Assembly: GCA_030055615.1 (NCBI GenBank)
Contig: JASFYN010000003.1
Coordinates: 62,001-126,000 of the forward strand
Direction: 5' to 3'
Length of the DNA stretch: 64,000 nt
Source of the DNA: Methanothermobacter sp.
GTDB taxonomy: Archaea > Methanobacteriota > Methanobacteria > Methanobacteriales > DSM-23052
The position numbers and the translations under genes were made by a program. The notes beneath the pieces were generated by a model. The model did no database searches. It had not been told where the DNA came from and saw only the letters and a program-made list of their open reading frames with translations. Below are positions 32,705 to 44,513 of this stretch, piece by piece. Positions within the stretch are counted from its first letter, which is position 1, and each line of letters opens with the position of its first letter.

Positions 32705-34516
32705 TTACTGGGGGGATAAAAGCTTTTGGTTATTGCGCAGTCCATTGAGGATTACTGCGAGTGAAAGTCCCATATCACCTATGCCCACAGCCATCCATAA
32801 TGATACTAGTCCAAAGATTGAAAGAATGGCCAAGGACCCTTTAACTAATATTGAAAAGAATATGTTCTCTTTAACTATTCTCATTGTTCTTCTTCCGAGT
32901 TTTATTATTTGGTGGATTTTCATGAGGTCATCGTCGATTAGCACTATATCTGCGGTGTCAAGGGCTATGTCAGAGCCTCTGGTCCCCATAGCAATCCCGA
33001 CATCTGCTGCTACAAGGGCTGGGGCGTCGTTTATACCGTCACCAACCATGGCAACTCTTCCCTTAGATCTTAGATCTTCTATGAAATCGAATTTGTCCTC
33101 TGGGAGCAGACCTCCAATGTATTTGTCAATTTTAAGTTCCTTTGCTAATTTCTCCGCGACTTTCGGATTATCCCCTGTTAAAATCATTGTCTTAATATTT
33201 TCCTGGGATAACCTTTCTATTAGGGCAGGGGCTGATGGTCTCATTTTATCTTCCAATGTTATTTCCCCAATGATTTCATCCCCACTTTCTAGGAAAATGG
33301 ACATGTCTTCGCTTTTCTGCCGGGCGTTCTGGCCTAGGAAGTACAGTTTACCATCGATCCTACCAGAGATGCCATATCCCGGCTTGTATTCTAAATTTTC
33401 AGCTTTTAATGGTTCCAAACCTTTTTCTTCTGCTATTTTAGTTATTGCTTCTGCTATTGGATGTTTTAAACCTCTTTCTAGCGAAGCTGCGATCTTTAAT
33501 ATGTCAATGTTATTGTATGATTTTATTTCCTTTATTGTTAGCTTACCCTGCGTTAGCGTCCCTGTCTTGTCAAATACAACAGTTCTTACCTTTGACATTT
33601 CTTCAAGGTAATTTGAACCCTTGATTAGTATCCCTTCTCTTGTAGCTGCTGTTATCCCTGATATCATCGCAACTGGTACTGATATTACAAGGGCGCAGGG
33701 GCATGCGATCACCATCAATACGAGAGCCCGGTATATCCAAATTTCTGGGTTGCCTATGATAAAACTTGGGATAATACCCGTTAATATGCTTGCAATTATA
33801 ATTGTTGGAGTGTAATATGATGCGAATTTGTCCATGAAAACTTCTCTGGATGATCTTTTCATTCTAGCCTTTTCTATCAATTCTATGACCCTTGCTATGA
33901 TTGTCCTTTCAGAATTCCTTGTGACCTTGACTTCAAGGTAGCCTTCAAGGTTTATTGTGCCAGCGAATACTTCATCCCCAACAGTCTTATGAACTGGCTC
34001 GGATTCTCCTGTAATATTTGATTGGTCAACATAACTTGAACCATCTATTATCTCCCCATCCAAGGGTATCATGTCCCCTGGGCGTATGACCATTATCTCC
34101 CCTGGTTGCACTCTACTAGCATCCACCTTAACCTCTTTTTTTCCAATTTTTATAGTTGCTATTTCTGGTTTGAGTCGCATTAAGCTCTTTATAGACTCAT
34201 GCGCCTGGCCGGTCGCATATTCTTCTAGATATTCTGCGATATAATATAGCAAAACTACGAGGGCTGCTTCAGGATAATCCCCAAGTGAGTATGCTCCTAT
34301 CACCGCTAATGTAATGAGAAGATTTATAGTGAACTTGCCATGATAAAGTGTGATGATGGCACCTTTGAATGTCTCGAGACCTGACGCAAAAACAGTTGCT
34401 GTGAATAGTATGAAAGCAAGTAGCATATACCCATTATATTGTAAGTAGAGTCCCATGATAAACAAGATGACAGATATGATTATGACTTTTTTATCTTTTC
34501 CATTATTACAAGGCAT
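32705..34516 (-). CDS. P1B-type heavy-metal ATPase, probably Zn/Cd/Pb export
   Basis: 603 residues. Metal-transport motif CPC (272-274), phosphorylated Asp316 in DKTGTLTQGK, the HP dipeptide (His352) of P1B ATPases, and hinge MVGDGINDAPAL are present. A conserved Asp in the last helix (GIGDMGLSLA) fits the Zn2+/Cd2+/Pb2+ subgroup. There is no N-terminal HMA metal-binding domain, only a short Cys-containing start (MPCNNG). Eight transmembrane helices are expected. Confidence 0.85.
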   Translation of the reverse strand: MPCNNGKDKKVIIISVILFIMGLYLQYNGYMLLAFILFTATVFASGLETFKGAIITLYHGKFTINLLITLAVIGAYSLGDYPEAALVVLLYYIAEYLEEYATGQAHESIKSLMRLKPEIATIKIGKKEVKVDASRVQPGEIMVIRPGDMIPLDGEIIDGSSYVDQSNITGESEPVHKTVGDEVFAGTINLEGYLEVKVTRNSERTIIARVIELIEKARMKRSSREVFMDKFASYYTPTIIIASILTGIIPSFIIGNPEIWIYRALVLMVIACPCALVISVPVAMISGITAATREGILIKGSNYLEEMSKVRTVVFDKTGTLTQGKLTIKEIKSYNNIDILKIAASLERGLKHPIAEAITKIAEEKGLEPLKAENLEYKPGYGISGRIDGKLYFLGQNARQKSEDMSIFLESGDEIIGEITLEDKMRPSAPALIERLSQENIKTMILTGDNPKVAEKLAKELKIDKYIGGLLPEDKFDFIEDLRSKGRVAMVGDGINDAPALVAADVGIAMGTRGSDIALDTADIVLIDDDLMKIHQIIKLGRRTMRIVKENIFFSILVKGSLAILSIFGLVSLWMAVGIGDMGLSLAVILNGLRNNQKLLSPQ

Positions 34517-34526
34517 AAGCGGGACC

Positions 34527-35435
34527 TCATTTTTTTAATATTCTTGTAGCTTCACTTGAAGGTAGTGTGGTAGTTGCACCATATCCTTGTATACAATGGG
34601 ATGCTATATAATTTCCAAAGTAGCATGACATTTCAAGGTCATGGCCCGTAAGCCATGCGTATAGGAATCCCGCGTTGAATGCGTCACCCGCCCCAGTTGT
34701 GTCCACGCATTCAACTTTTAAGGCCGGTACTTCCACTTCCAGGTCTTTCATAAGCCCGTAAACCCCTAATGGGCCTCTTTTTATGATGATGACATCAACT
34801 TCATCTGCTAAGAGTTTCGCAGCCTCCTTGTAGGATCCATGGTAGCCTAGCATCATCTTAATTTCCATCTCATTTAATAATAGGATGTTAACGGCTTCTA
34901 TGAGCTTTCTAAGAGCTTTTATCCCCCTTTTGGCGTACAAGTTTCCTGGGTCTAGGCTTATAAGAGGCCTAGAAGATAATCTATCAAGTAATGTTTCTTG
35001 GACATGTAGGCCTTCACCTGCAAATGATGTCAAGTGTAGTAATTTGCTATTCTCTACCAGTCTGATTTTTATCTCATCAATTTTTATGGTGTCATTTACA
35101 CCAGGGTCTAAGTAGAGTGCTCTTTGTCCATGTTCATCCACAAAGCCTATTACTTTACCGCTTCTACCTTTTTTTGTGATGATTAAAAGATCCAAGTTGA
35201 CCTTTTCCCTTTCAAGGTTTTCTTTAAGCTTGAGGCCTTCTCTGTCCATGGCTACCTTACCGATGTATGCTGTTTTAAGGCCTAATTTTGAAAGTCCTAT
35301 GATGGTATTAGCCGCTGAACCGCCGCAACTTTCTTTAAAACCTCTGATTATGGTTTCTTCTTCTGGGCCTATGATTTTATCAACCATGTAGAGTTGGTCC
35401 ATGTTAAGGGCTCCGAAACCCACCACATCAAACAT
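34527..35435 (-). CDS. PfkB family carbohydrate/nucleoside kinase
   Basis: 302 residues of the ribokinase fold. The substrate motif ESCGGSAANTIIGLSKLG and the ATP/anion-hole signature DTTGAGDAFNAGFLYAW (catalytic Asp near 247) are clear. In related methanogens a similar enzyme phosphorylates nucleosides; the substrate here is not proven. It follows the Ftr-like gene by 23 bp on the same strand. Confidence 0.8.
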   Translation of the reverse strand: MFDVVGFGALNMDQLYMVDKIIGPEEETIIRGFKESCGGSAANTIIGLSKLGLKTAYIGKVAMDREGLKLKENLEREKVNLDLLIITKKGRSGKVIGFVDEHGQRALYLDPGVNDTIKIDEIKIRLVENSKLLHLTSFAGEGLHVQETLLDRLSSRPLISLDPGNLYAKRGIKALRKLIEAVNILLLNEMEIKMMLGYHGSYKEAAKLLADEVDVIIIKRGPLGVYGLMKDLEVEVPALKVECVDTTGAGDAFNAGFLYAWLTGHDLEMSCYFGNYIASHCIQGYGATTTLPSSEATRILKK

Positions 35436-35458: not shown

Positions 35459-36349
35459 CTAGAATAGTTCATGGAGGAATATCTTATCATCGCCTAGTTT
35501 ACCATCGTAGTTGCCGGCTGAAACTCTTATCACACCATCAAATTCTGAAACGGCCTTCACACCCACCCTTAAGGCTTCTATGACATTTTTTTTGGAAAGT
35601 CCGTTTATTACTATTTCTGGTATGTATTTAACTCCATTTGGGACTTTGGATTCCTTGCCTAATTTTGTTTTTAGTGATGGGCAGTATGGATGGTTTGTTG
35701 TGGGGCCTATCCATGGGTACTTTGTTTCAGGCTTTGATGGGGCTGAACAGATATCAAATGGTGTTATGACCTTATCTATTCTACTTATGGCTTCTATGGC
35801 GCTTTCACCCGCTTCAAGTACTGATTTTTTATCCTTGCACATGTACCAGAAGTTGGCGCCCATTATACCTGTCTGGTATCCTAGCCGGGCTTCTATTTTG
35901 AAATCCGGCACTGCTATAGGTACTATTATCATCTCTCTTCCATGAATGGTTTCTATCCATTCGTATCCATCACCACAATGTCCAACGTGCTTCATCATGT
36001 CAATGTACCCTTCTGCTTCTAAACTTGCATCAAATAGGCTTGTGAACGGCTTCACTAGGATGTCCTGTCTTATCCTATAGGATAATTCTACCTCAAATTT
36101 TTCCATGTCATCAAGGGCAAAATAGAATTGTAGAATAGCACCATGTCTAGAATCTGGGGTCATGTCAGGACCCAAGAAAGATTCAACACCACTTTCTAAT
36201 CTTCCTATGACCGCTGCTGGTGTGGAAGTAGCATCATATGCCGCTCTTTTAACTGTTTTTTTGTCGTGGGCAGTTACTATGGCCCTTACACATTTACCCT
36301 TGAAGATTTCGCAGAATGTGTCCTCTATGATGGTGCCGTTGATGTTCAC
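35459..36349 (-). CDS. Ftr-II-like formylmethanofuran:H4MPT formyltransferase paralogue
   Basis: 296 residues aligning in order with Ftr. It begins [16 protein letters not shown] and includes [21 protein letters not shown] and GRLEAGYQTG-type segments (here [15 protein letters not shown]). It differs from the catalytic Ftr consensus in many places, as the second copy (FtrII) of Methanothermobacter does. In M. thermautotrophicus that copy lies at the distal end of the eha hydrogenase operon (from memory). The GTG start overlaps the upstream stop (TAGTG), with GGAGG eight bases before it. Confidence 0.78.
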
Positions 36350-37374
36350 TATCCTAGGCCTCCTATGGCCTCCCCCCTGACCCTTTTACGCATTTGGAGG
36401 CTCTCCTCTGCTATCTTTTCTATGTTATCATCTGGGATGAGTATTCTTGGGAAATCTTCCTTGAATGTTTCCATGAATTTTTCAAAGATATTATAGCTTA
36501 TCCTAAAATTTTCCAAGGCCCTTTCAGGGTCCATTGTGTAAGCTTTCACGAATTCTATGATATAGTCTCTGCCGAAACGTGAATGTAGATCTGCTATTAG
36601 AGCTAATGGGAGGGCGTTCTCTGCTATAATGATTATATCAGCTTCCTTTACAGCGTAATGGTTTCCATTGAAGGATACAGCCAAGCCACGCCCCTTTGTG
36701 TACCTGAGGGGTTCCACGTCAGTTATACTATCCCCCACATATAATGTTGATTTTATGGGGAGTTTCTCCTTTTTGAGTATTTCTTTGAGGGCTAGGCGTT
36801 TTCCCTCCCCTCCTACTGTCTTAACATCCTCTATGAGTTTACCTATCCTCATCTGGGGTATTTCTTCGAAGAATATTTTGTCCATTGTCTCGAAATCAGC
36901 GCCTTCCACTATCATGTCTTTGAATTGGAATAGTTTCTCCCTTTCATCCTCAGGAAGTTCGTGTGAATCTATGTCAAGGCTTGTATAATATGTGTTCTCG
37001 AAGGGAAAATCGATTAGGTTACAGAGGGCTTCAATGTATTGCCTATAACTTGTGCTTATAATATAGGATGGCATGACTCTCTGGACTTTTTGGAGTAGTT
37101 CGCGGGCCCATGGGACTAGGCTGATATTTTCTTTGGAAAATTCCACTATCTTGTCATTGGTGACATTATAGGCTTTTAAGAATGGTGTAATGAGTTTAAG
37201 GGTGTCACCCGCATTATAACCTGGTCTTTTAATCTCATATGCTAGTATATCATCGTATCTGCTCACTGCAGCGAAGAATCTGTCACCATCCGGTATGAAA
37301 TGGCTTGCAAGTTCGAACGCATTGTCATTAAGTGAAATGGGACCCTCACAGTCTGTTACAAATAATTTTTTCAT
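36349..37374 (-). CDS. HAD-superfamily phosphatase-like protein, EhaR-like
   Basis: About 341 residues. [20 protein letters not shown] contains the first HAD motif, although the second Asp of the usual DxD is a Glu-Gly here. Motif II Ser/Thr lies in [11 protein letters not shown] and motifs III-IV near [13 protein letters not shown]. Proteins like this are annotated as energy-converting hydrogenase A subunit R in Methanobacteriales. The assignment rests on memory and context. The ATG at 37374 is chosen because GGGGTGATC precedes it; the frame extends to 37398. Confidence 0.62.
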
Positions 37375-37401
37375 TTTGGGATCACCCCCCGGGAACATTT
37401 C

Positions 37402-37689
37402 CTATCCAGGATGAAATGGGGGTTTGGGGAAGATGCTCTCTAGGATATATTTTACTAGGAGAGCTGATAATATTCCCATGATAAGGCCTAGATCCAAAGT
37501 ATTATAGAATCCTTTAAATCCCAATCTTAGGGATGCTGCGAGTAAGCCTGCTGCGATTATGGGTGTTGGGAATATCACTGTCAAAGTCCATGAACGTCTC
37601 CATGGTCTTTCAGCTACGATTGGGAGTCCAAGGAGTGAAGCTGCAATAATAGCTGATATTATCGCAATCAAGTAACTAAAGAGGATCAT
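37402..37689 (-). CDS. ehaA: small membrane protein, EhaA-like (energy-converting hydrogenase A)
   Basis: 95 residues from ATG 37689, with three hydrophobic helices. The pattern LPIVAERPWRRSWTLTVIFP TPIIAAG resembles EhaA, the first subunit of the Eha membrane hydrogenase in Methanobacteriales. It is followed after 27 bp by the EhaR-like gene instead of ehaB. A TATATATTTTG-type box lies about 30 bp before the ATG, suggesting a leaderless transcript. The identity is from remembered family features. Confidence 0.58.
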   Translation of the reverse strand: MILFSYLIAIISAIIAASLLGLPIVAERPWRRSWTLTVIFPTPIIAAGLLAASLRLGFKGFYNTLDLGLIMGILSALLVKYILESIFPKPPFHPG

Positions 37690-37800
37690 ATTAAAAAGAT
37701 GAAAATTCAAAATATATAAAATTTTTCCAAAATCTGATATCTTAATCCGTGAAGTTTCATCCCCATTACAAAAAATAAAATCATTTGACTTATTAAAAGG

Positions 37801-37933: not shown

Positions 37934-39286
37934 ATGAAATCTAAAAAGCATGAAGAAATTTTAAGATTGCATCAATCCTCAAGGGATCTTATCGTTGTAG
38001 TTTTTTCAGCCTTCATACTCTTAATACTTCTACAATTCCCATATAAGTTTTGGATCTTCAGAAGCCTGATTATAGGATTTAATATTTTTTTAATACTGGG
38101 ATATTCTATAATATCATCTTTTTCCCTCAAGTTTCAAGAGAAAAAATTATCCTTGAGGCTGATCCTAAGCATCCCCATAAGTCTGGCGATAATCATAGCA
38201 TTTGACTATCTACCATTAGATAACCATGGGATCCTCAGATTATCAGCTATTATATCACTCATAGCAGGGATACTAGCATATGCTAGAAGACGTAGAAGAC
38301 AAAGCATGATAAGAAGATCACTGAAAGAAGCTGGAATAGATGAAAAGAATATTATAAGCCCATCAGAGGCTGCTAGGATAGCTATAAAACGACATGAAAG
38401 GTTATCCAAAGGGGATGAGCTCGAAAGGGCATTCCCACCAGAGGAATATTTCAAAATCGAAGAAAAAAAAGAAAAGCCAAAAATAGGATCCTACGCAGAC
38501 CTAATACTCATCCTCATATTCACAATAATAACAATAATATCACCAACCAAATGGCCACTTGGAATATTCATGATTATACTAATACCAGGTTATTTACTCA
38601 TAGCAAGTCTAGTCCCAAAAAAGGAGACCATAAACCTTTATGAGAGACTATTCCTAAGTTTCACACTGAGTATGATCATAAGTGCCATCATCAGCCTAAT
38701 CTTAAAAAAGCCTTTAAACCTCGCCCTCACAGAAACATCTTGCAGATTGTCCATTTTCTTAACAATAACATCCTTCATAATAAGATCGAAGACTAAACCC
38801 GCTGAAAGATTTTACTGGAGCCCCATCAAATCCATTAAAAGGATCAAAGACATGCACCTGAAAAAAAACCAAATGATATCACTCATAATATTCATCATCC
38901 TCATTTCAATGATAGGAGCCACCATTAACACCGTAATTTTAAATCCAGTCCCATCAGAAAAATTCACAGAATTTTACATCCTTGGACCCACAGGAAAAGC
39001 ATACGATTACCCAACAAACCTAAAAATAGGCGAAACCGGAGAAGTAATTATAGGAGTTGTAAACCATGAATATCAGACCACAAAATATAGGATAATCGTT
39101 AAAATAGGCGAAGAAGTCATGGACAATACTACAATAACATTAAAAAACGGCGAAAAGTGGGAAAAACGCTTTAAATTCACCCAAACAGAAGCTGGGGACA
39201 ACCAAAAACTCCAGTTCCTATTATACCGTCTGCCAGATGAAGAAAAAGTTTACAGATCACTCCACCTCTTCGTGAATGTGAAATAA
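37934..39286 (+). CDS. DUF1616 membrane protein
   Basis: 450 residues. There are several transmembrane helices (about 20-40, 45-65, 75-95, 97-115, then about 190-285 and 315-335) with a basic cytoplasmic loop in the middle. The C-terminal extracytoplasmic domain carries the typical DUF1616 motif FYILGPTGKAYDYPTNLKIG and IGVVNHEYQTTKYRI. The function is unknown. These proteins occur next to glycan and S-layer genes in archaea, as here. Confidence 0.75.
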   Translation: MKSKKHEEILRLHQSSRDLIVVVFSAFILLILLQFPYKFWIFRSLIIGFNIFLILGYSIISSFSLKFQEKKLSLRLILSIPISLAIIIAFDYLPLDNHGILRLSAIISLIAGILAYARRRRRQSMIRRSLKEAGIDEKNIISPSEAARIAIKRHERLSKGDELERAFPPEEYFKIEEKKEKPKIGSYADLILILIFTIITIISPTKWPLGIFMIILIPGYLLIASLVPKKETINLYERLFLSFTLSMIISAIISLILKKPLNLALTETSCRLSIFLTITSFIIRSKTKPAERFYWSPIKSIKRIKDMHLKKNQMISLIIFIILISMIGATINTVILNPVPSEKFTEFYILGPTGKAYDYPTNLKIGETGEVIIGVVNHEYQTTKYRIIVKIGEEVMDNTTITLKNGEKWEKRFKFTQTEAGDNQKLQFLLYRLPDEEKVYRSLHLFVNVK

Positions 39287-42841: not shown

Positions 42842-42902
42842 TTTCAAGTGATATTTTTATTTGTCACAGGTTACATTTGCCTGTGATGTGGGAGGCGATA
42901 AT

Positions 42903-44513
42903 ATTTCGACTGGTATAACAGTACTATGCATGCTATGCATGGTACTAGCAACAGTAGGTACCAGTTATGCCCAAGAAAACACAACCACAAACTTTGAATT
43001 AAAGGATAACAGTGCACAATTAAGTGAAGAGAAAACCAACGAAACCCCCACCATAATGGGAAAAACCCCCAAAATTAATGAAACGAGCCAACAGGCAGCA
43101 TATAACGATGAAAAAAATGTAAAGACCGTTAAACCCTCGGATATTGAGGATGCAGCGGTCAGGGTTAACAAGTTCATCCAAGAGAACGGAAAACTCCCCA
43201 GGTATGTGAGTATCAAAAATTCAGAGGTTAGCATGCCGGACTACTTATACCTCCTCACAGCATCCCTAACAGGTGGGGATACCATCCTAAAGAATGTGAA
43301 ACCACCCAAAAGCTCCATTGGAAGCACATTGACCGGTTCAATAAAATTAAATGACTACCTTGAAGTTGCAGGTAGGGTGTACAATTTCATAAAATCGGAA
43401 GACACAGCACCCTCCTATGCAAACTACCAGGGCCTTAAAATCAGATTCGAATCCCTCATATGGCTATTCACAAAAGCCGTTAATTTCAAAGTAACAAATC
43501 AACAACTGCCCAATTACATAAACCTTGAAAAACTTAATAACATAGGCACATACACTGCATACAATAACAATCCAGGCAGCACTTCAGGAAGTGCTGCCAG
43601 CGACAATTCAATAGCTATCAAAGACATCTTAAATGCGGCAGTTTCACTTAAAAATTTCATAGAACAAAATCAGCGCCTACCCACATATGTGCAGGTGGCA
43701 AATCAAAAAATAAGCCCAAGCCAATTCTTATACCTAATGGCTAAAAGCATAATCAAAATAAATAACGGGAAAAACACACCCATCAGCCTAATAGAAGCTA
43801 ATGAAGCGCCAAACCCATCAGGGAACGCTACAGGCATACTTGAACTCAAAGAATATCTTCAAAGCGCGGTGAATGTCGCAAGTTTCATTGAAACCAACAA
43901 AAGATCATCAAATTATGCCATAACAAGCATTGGGAAAGTATCCTATCCCGATATAATCTATGCCATGGCGAGGATACTTACATTCTACAAGGAAAATAAC
44001 ATATTACCTAAAATAGTAACAATAAAAAAGGTATACAAACAAAATCAGGATACAAACAATGAACTCACTCAGTACCTTATCGCCACGGCAAACTGTCAAG
44101 TGAACGATCCTAGTATACAATCATTAGCCACCCAGTTAACCCGTGGCCTTACCAGTACATGGGATAAGGCGAAGGCTGTCTTCAACTGGGTCAGGGATAA
44201 CATAAATTATAGTTTCTATTATAATACAAGGTATGGTGCTGTTGGAACCCTTAAATACAGGACTGGTAACTGTTGCGATCATGCACATCTTGTAGTGGCA
44301 CTTGCCAGAGCAGCCGGGTTACCAGCACGATACAAGCATGGAATCTGCACATTCTCCAGTGGAACCTATGGACATGTCTGGGCACAAATCTACATTGGGG
44401 GTACATGGTACGATGCAGATGCAACAAGCCTCAGAAACAGTCTAGGTGTAATAAACAATTGGAACACAGCAACTGGGACAATACTAGGAACCTACGCAAG
44501 CCTACCATTTTAA
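42903..44513 (+). CDS. secreted pseudomurein-binding-repeat protein with transglutaminase-like domain
   Basis: About 536 residues if started at ATT 42903. A signal peptide ends near ...VGTSYA-QENT. Four pseudomurein-binding repeats follow (about residues 79-122, 147-193, 238-284 and 314-360), each with an F-I-E-x-N-x-x-L-P-x-Y-type core. The C-terminal transglutaminase-like domain has triad Cys457 (RTGNCCDHAH), His491 (YGHVWAQI) and Asp504 (WYDADAT). The layout parallels the phage pseudomurein endoisopeptidases PeiW/PeiP but with an export signal, so a wall-remodelling hydrolase is likely. The alternative starts (TTG 42861, ATG 42930) lack a ribosome site or shorten the signal. Confidence 0.8.
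   Translation: MSTGITVLCMLCMVLATVGTSYAQENTTTNFELKDNSAQLSEEKTNETPTIMGKTPKINETSQQAAYNDEKNVKTVKPSDIEDAAVRVNKFIQENGKLPRYVSIKNSEVSMPDYLYLLTASLTGGDTILKNVKPPKSSIGSTLTGSIKLNDYLEVAGRVYNFIKSEDTAPSYANYQGLKIRFESLIWLFTKAVNFKVTNQQLPNYINLEKLNNIGTYTAYNNNPGSTSGSAASDNSIAIKDILNAAVSLKNFIEQNQRLPTYVQVANQKISPSQFLYLMAKSIIKINNGKNTPISLIEANEAPNPSGNATGILELKEYLQSAVNVASFIETNKRSSNYAITSIGKVSYPDIIYAMARILTFYKENNILPKIVTIKKVYKQNQDTNNELTQYLIATANCQVNDPSIQSLATQLTRGLTSTWDKAKAVFNWVRDNINYSFYYNTRYGAVGTLKYRTGNCCDHAHLVVALARAAGLPARYKHGICTFSSGTYGHVWAQIYIGGTWYDADATSLRNSLGVINNWNTATGTILGTYASLPF

Follow-up and report, generated by a model that had tools for sequence, protein, structure and literature searches.

Within the window, which here means the whole analysed stretch of 64,000 nucleotides (positions 62001-126000 of contig C3 of the window genome, G000), four genes of the eha (energy-converting hydrogenase A) operon lie in a row on the reverse strand, between a gene for a metal-transporting ATPase and a divergent gene for a membrane protein. 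The features of this locus are as follows:

32708..34516 (-): heavy-metal P-type ATPase gene, the syntenic flank downstream of the operon, which comes after the CBS gene in group f2
34517..34526 (-): junction 2, the ehaT/P-type ATPase gap, where relatives have the FdX polyferredoxin and CBS genes
34530..35435 (-; 34527 with the stop codon): ehaT, PfkB-family (ribokinase-like) gene (PF00294), positioned between FtrII and FdX in relatives
35462..36349 (-): ehaS, paralogue of formylmethanofuran:H4MPT formyltransferase (Ftr-II; PF01913/PF02741)
36352..37374 (-): ehaR, HAD-superfamily protein, homologue of AF1437 (PDB 1y8a, E 2.3e-43)
37375..37401 (-): junction 1, the ehaA/ehaR gap of 27 bp, where relatives have ehaB-Q (about 10 kb)
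37405..37689 (-; stop codon to 37402): ehaA, native-type small membrane subunit of Eha (PF17367)
37709..37728 (-): BRE/TATA-like block GGAAAAATTTTATATATTTT, about 20-39 nt upstream of the ehaA start codon (ATG), a putative promoter
37934..39286 (+): DUF1616 membrane protein gene, the divergent syntenic flank upstream of ehaA, on the matching side in f2 and several genomes of group f3

An earlier, sequence-only reading had taken the 95-residue protein for EhaA, and a profile search bears this out (PF17367, NiFe_hyd_3_EhaA; E 1.8e-29, 102.2 bits against a cut-off of 25.5, model positions 10-97 of 97). It was also right that a HAD protein, EhaR, begins 27 bp downstream (the better start is 37374), that an Ftr-family protein comes next, and that in the window ehaA and the HAD gene have none of ehaB-Q between them. 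The EhaR protein retains the motifs D-x-E and GDSxTD. The ehaS product aligns over its full length with the Methanopyrus kandleri Ftr (1ftr), contains the Ftr fold domains and conserves Glu245 (M. kandleri numbering), which we take to be the catalytic residue of Ftr; by fold and by this residue it would count as an Ftr, with a putative formyltransferase activity. It scores 216.8 bits against the curated one_C_fhcD equivalog, below the cut-off of 292.6, and a separate Ftr, 39% identical to EhaS, is encoded on contig C1 of the same genome. The PfkB gene had been regarded as an ordinary outside neighbour, which is mistaken: EhaS and EhaT of M. thermautotrophicus were originally annotated as formyltransferase and ribokinase (PMC3087415), and a PfkB gene lies between FtrII and FdX in all relatives' operons read at that place, so that this gene is ehaT, a member of the operon.

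The GGAAAAATTTTATATATTTT block is nearly invariant in the four genomes of the window's genus (g1, G000-G003), within an upstream region that has otherwise diverged, and its distance from the ehaA ATG suggests a leaderless transcript. The dN/dS ratio is 0.14-0.17 for ehaA (against two congeners), 0.09 for ehaR and 0.10-0.11 for ehaS, and these values, together with the near-invariant block, indicate that the genes of the locus are being maintained, with purifying selection acting on those tested. In G002 the HAD match, which starts upstream of the likely start codon, shows one in-frame TGA. Further along the window (42861-44513) lies a gene whose translation, judged by eye, has pseudomurein-binding-like repeats and a transglutaminase-like C-terminal part.

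The genes that are missing at the two junctions lie elsewhere in the genome. By position and Pfam content, ehaB-Q, the polyferredoxin gene FdX and the CBS gene are intact on contig C2 (G000:C2:375281-385860). The families matched there are PF00346/PF00374, PF01058, PF09877-PF09882, PF10125, PF00146, PF09218 and Fer4, with the NiFe large and small subunits among them; EhaB, EhaI and EhaK are assigned by position and homology only. The polyferredoxins of this core are P, Q and a third, FdX, which is followed by the CBS-domain protein. The gene set of the Eha complex (NiFe large and small subunits, membrane subunits B-M and polyferredoxins) is present in the window genome, and the loss of Eha that had been considered did not take place; ehb is present as well. 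A search for the NiFe small subunit gave four matches, one inside the Eha core (C2:380525), one within what homology and layout identify as the ehb operon (C1:186100), and two with the lengths expected of FrhG and MvhG. EhaA, EhaR, EhaF and EhaO gave one match each at the thresholds used, the sole EhaA being the window copy, and there is no ehaA at the C2 locus directly upstream of ehaB. Of the finding that would have refuted the sequence-only reading, the remaining genes intact elsewhere with an ehaA of their own, the first half holds and the second does not.

Rather than forming a single ehaA-T transcription unit, the genes are distributed over two contigs, where each set would be transcribed from its own upstream promoter-like block. 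Two conserved elements occur in the leader of the relocated ehaB (L039:7010-7150, G000:C2): a TATA-like palindrome, ACATATTTATATGT, and a perfect inverted repeat, ATGTTTAAT/ATTAAACAT, that encloses or overlaps a 19-codon frame. The frame is possibly a remnant of ehaA, though it overlaps the repeat. The 400-bp leader before ehaB matched no known RNA family in Rfam.

The same arrangement is found throughout the genus. The order ehaA-HAD-FtrII-PfkB-P-ATPase, with the divergent DUF1616 gene opposite, occurs in G001, which is a single contig of 1.52 Mb, and in G002, while in G003 it is present in pieces over two contigs; ehaA-R-S-T is thereby split from the core in all four genomes, each of which has the core elsewhere. 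In the two f2 genomes, and in those f3 genomes that have the stretch on one contig, A-B..Q-R-S-T-FdX-CBS is one operon. The f2 operon lies between the same flanks as in g1, with DUF1616 upstream and the order PfkB-FdX-CBS-P-ATPase at its end. Measured against this ancestral order, B-Q and FdX-CBS are the two blocks gone from the old site in g1, and precisely these two, joined together and with neither A nor R-S-T, make up the new site. The genus most likely corresponds to the M. tenebrarum group: Adam et al. 2022 (PMC9635834) take M. tenebrarum to exemplify a small, separate Eha clade, and a 2026 study (PMC13135261) has it branching basally in the order, as f__DSM-23052, a placement with which that of g1 in our tree of RpoA' agrees.

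Comparison of the two sets of genes reveals different histories. Leaving I and K aside, the EhaB-O proteins of g1 share 70-84% identity with those of G038, an f3 metagenome-assembled genome (Euryarchaeota K_DeepCast_300m_m2_256) of 200 contigs and the sole genome of the supposed donor lineage, and 30-66% with those of f2, g8 and g18, which are mostly 55-86% identical among themselves. A, R, S and T of g1 have no such excess of identity toward G038. Across 151 genomes of the order, the large subunits of g1 and G038 group at 79% identity or more and all others lie at 60% or less. Fifteen single-gene trees divide by location without exception; EhaD, EhaE, EhaG and EhaL enter the analysis through the concatenation. 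In the trees of A, R, S and T (4/4) g1 joins f2 and G038 joins G148, sister-level statements that for these genes rest on unrooted trees; in those of B, C, F, H, J, N, O, P, Q, FdX and CBS (11/11) g1 joins G038. Support for g1 with f2 is 92/89 for ehaA, 98/98 for ehaR and 100/99 for ehaT, and CBS taken alone gives a weaker tree (89/85).

AU tests agree with this division, the retained and relocated sets having been defined by location, with the first trees already seen before the tests were made. For Q, FdX and CBS together, an f3 group that leaves g1 outside is rejected (p 2e-8), and for A, R, S and T together, g1 beside G038 is rejected (p 4e-6). The EhaB-O distance between g1 and f2 is 2.47 substitutions per site compared to 0.39 between g1 and G038, with the native-type distance from f2 to G148 at 0.59. 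With this supported conflict between gene trees and species tree, and the constraint rejected, the relocated block has the phylogenetic marks of horizontal acquisition. As to direction, Q, FdX and CBS of the pair g1 and G038 lie beside G148, inside f3, and G148 is the sister of G038 in the RpoA' tree (86/99), so that transfer from f3 to g1 is favoured; holding the pair outside f3, as the reverse direction would have it, is rejected at p 0.01, a modest test. In G038 the odd type extends from B to P only, within the ancestral order, and A, Q, R, S, T, FdX and CBS are of the ordinary f3 type. An odd B-P inside an otherwise ordinary f3-type operon makes two steps likely, a replacement in place followed by a transfer; the ehaA/ehaB join of G038 and its core sit on two different contigs. 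The ultimate source of B-P would, on the trees, be a deep third lineage beside Methanococci and the other Methanobacteriales. No closer relative of this core type, above about 60% identity, was found outside g1 and G038 among the 151 genomes of the order, the phylum, named genomes, the G152 phylum and Methanococci, a sampling that excludes Methanopyrus and Methanomicrobiales. A further NiFe large/small pair, 39% and 48% identical to Eha, is present in G038 besides its Eha and Ehb (G038:C35; L049:11108-13078).

The gene identities, locations, synteny and gene-tree conflict seen directly are, we believe with good confidence, best explained by a core acquired by horizontal transfer, after which two operon copies reciprocally lost genes until one copy of each remained. 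The window locus would then be the remainder of the ancestral eha operon in a Methanothermobacter tenebrarum-type methanogen. In an older step, B-P would have been replaced in place in the G038 lineage; the ancestor of the genus would later have gained a mosaic eha operon, integrated at a second locus, whose donor was a relative of G038 within Methanobacteriaceae. The old site would have lost ehaB-Q and FdX-CBS and kept ehaA and R-S-T, and the new site would have kept B-Q-FdX-CBS, with A and R-S-T now absent from it. The sequence-only reading, in which the core was either deleted or moved, came close with the second option; the core now present is of other phylogenetic origin, the native one having probably been deleted.

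Several other accounts of the split can be weighed against this evidence. A collapsed assembly or a binning artefact, as the sequence-only reading also considered, might be entertained in view of the fragmented state of G003 and G038, but the same split occurs in 4/4 genomes of the genus, including the single-contig assembly of 1.52 Mb, with the core elsewhere in every case, so that this explanation has a negligible probability. A simple rearrangement, in which the native B-Q-FdX-CBS moved by inversion or transposition with no foreign DNA, would fit both the presence of each tested gene exactly once and the consistency of the split in 4/4 genomes; it is nevertheless very unlikely in the face of the differing phylogenies of relocated and retained genes (the AU tests, at p 2e-8 and 4e-6) and of a B-O divergence from f2 so much greater than that from G038 (2.47 versus 0.39). 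That the window's four eha genes are decaying and functionless is also very unlikely: leftovers of an operon with a deleted core they may be, but their frames are intact in the window genome, the dN/dS values where tested are 0.09-0.17, the promoter-like block is conserved, and the genome has no other EhaA.

The remaining two accounts accept the odd core and differ in its history. If g1 or a relative were the donor and G038 the recipient of B-Q-FdX-CBS, the odd core would equally be common to both, a lineage sampled as thinly as one G038-type genome leaves room for this, and g1 has no native sister copy of B-P by which the direction might be polarised. We still find it improbable, as Q, FdX and CBS of both genomes fall beside G148 inside f3, with the outside placement rejected (p 0.01), and as it is G038 and not g1 that keeps the ancestral operon order. 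Two Eha operons in the ancestor of Methanobacteriales, with differential loss leaving the second type by descent in g1 and G038, are conceivable insofar as the B-P type, branching no less deeply than the Methanococci lineage, could be old. Descent, though, cannot place Q, FdX and CBS of g1 within f3, the B-O distance between g1 and G038 (0.39) is smaller than the native-type distance between f2 and G148 (0.59), and no genome with both types was found in the surveys of the order and the phylum; the chance that this account is correct appears very slim.

Under the horizontal transfer that we prefer, a hybrid Eha is most likely built in trans from the native EhaA and the foreign B-Q core with its polyferredoxins, and would use an ion gradient to reduce ferredoxin with H2. 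G038 likewise pairs a native-type EhaA (G038 with G148, 82/80) with the odd core, and since this holds in both lineages EhaA seems exchangeable. In the 4559 group, as in several Methanococci, the Eha cluster contains relatives of FdX and CBS, and these two genes therefore look like true partners of the core.

A different picture emerges for R-S-T. EhaR was found in 60/60 relatives searched, including Methanosphaera-like g5 genomes without EhaA; no EhaA was found in the g5 genomes searched and no EhaF in the 15 searched for it. Similarly, in the Methanothermus-like G151 EhaR is present and neither EhaO (E 1e-60) nor EhaF was found. The full trio was read directly in G020, G011, G019 and G151, all four without a match to EhaF. 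Conversely, EhaJ is present in 34/36 Methanococci, and EhaR was not found in 8/9 Methanococci tested, the ninth giving a weak partial match; in the 4559-type archaea EhaR lies away from the Eha cluster with no S or T nearby. EhaR, EhaS and EhaT do not, then, co-occur with Eha as obligate subunits would. The occurrence of R-S-T in genomes lacking Eha and the missing R in most tested Methanococci suggest that R-S-T is probably not part of the hydrogenase, and this distribution, along with the homology of EhaR to AF1437, argues against the subunit reading based on co-transcription. EhaR-S-T would more probably be a separate three-gene function that shares the operon. In general, then, the earlier proposal of a HAD-Ftr module able to function independently of Eha is probably correct, even if the window genome does possess Eha. 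Viewed as a subunit-exchange experiment, the split may mean that B-Q, FdX and CBS are co-adapted and inherited together, that EhaA is interchangeable, and that R-S-T is an independent pathway of a HAD phosphatase, a formyltransferase paralogue and a PfkB kinase found across Methanobacteriales with or without Eha, a reading to which we give an even chance. Ehb is absent from Methanothermus (PMC13135261), and G151 may lack both energy-converting hydrogenases; G061 (f3 g16, 90% completeness), with no EhaO at 1e-100 and no EhaF, is possibly a further case of Eha loss.

The closest known system is the ehaA-T unit of M. marburgensis and M. thermautotrophicus (PMC3087415), which has the same genes, order and families of flanking genes, with EhaS and EhaT as operon members; in those species the genes form a single transcription unit with a polyferredoxin gene after it, whereas here there are two loci and a core of other origin. 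The R-S-T clusters of g5 and G151 are orthologous to the trio in the window, and the g5 copy too adjoins DUF1616. Unlike here, none of them comes with an EhaF match, or with ehaA or ehaO where these were searched, and the order in G151 is T, R, S in the direction of transcription, which differs from R-S-T in the window.

An odd Eha clade and a possible recombination are already published: the main text of PMC9635834 describes a "Methanobacteria small clade in Eha" and proposes a possible ancient homologous recombination affecting some Methanobacteria. That clade very probably has the same core type as g1 (and G038). The concatenation used in that paper consists of EhaBCDEFGHJLMNO, without A, Q, R, S and T, genes that are included here. 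A similar example is provided by the split ehb genes of Methanococci, ascribed in that text to massive homologous recombination, again a hydrogenase operon split after foreign replacement; this concerns Ehb and not Eha, another lineage and other breakpoints. In the main text of PMC9635834 we found no mention of the split, a relict locus, breakpoints, the donor signal of Q-FdX-CBS or the decoupling of R-S-T, and by comparison with that text the split, the location-based partition, the probable donor lineage and the R-S-T decoupling appear new.

Methanogenesis draws on Eha for the low-potential ferredoxin of its first step, and the eha genes of Methanococcus maripaludis proved impossible to delete (PMC3087415). 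The eha genes of g1 are a well-preserved case of the swapping of an essential multi-subunit membrane machine, nearly all of it replaced and its genes spread over two loci. How the genes are divided between the loci offers a direct hypothesis on which products truly belong to the enzyme; it also suggests that ehaR, ehaS and ehaT are misnamed and code for an unrelated function.

A separate peculiarity of the genus concerns RpoA' (RNA polymerase subunit A'; G000:C1:357953-361060), which in 4/4 g1 genomes has about 1055-1067 residues compared to mostly about 870-900. An intein is not supported by the sequence of the extra segment, which is a charged, helix-rich insertion of roughly 180 residues near residue 186.
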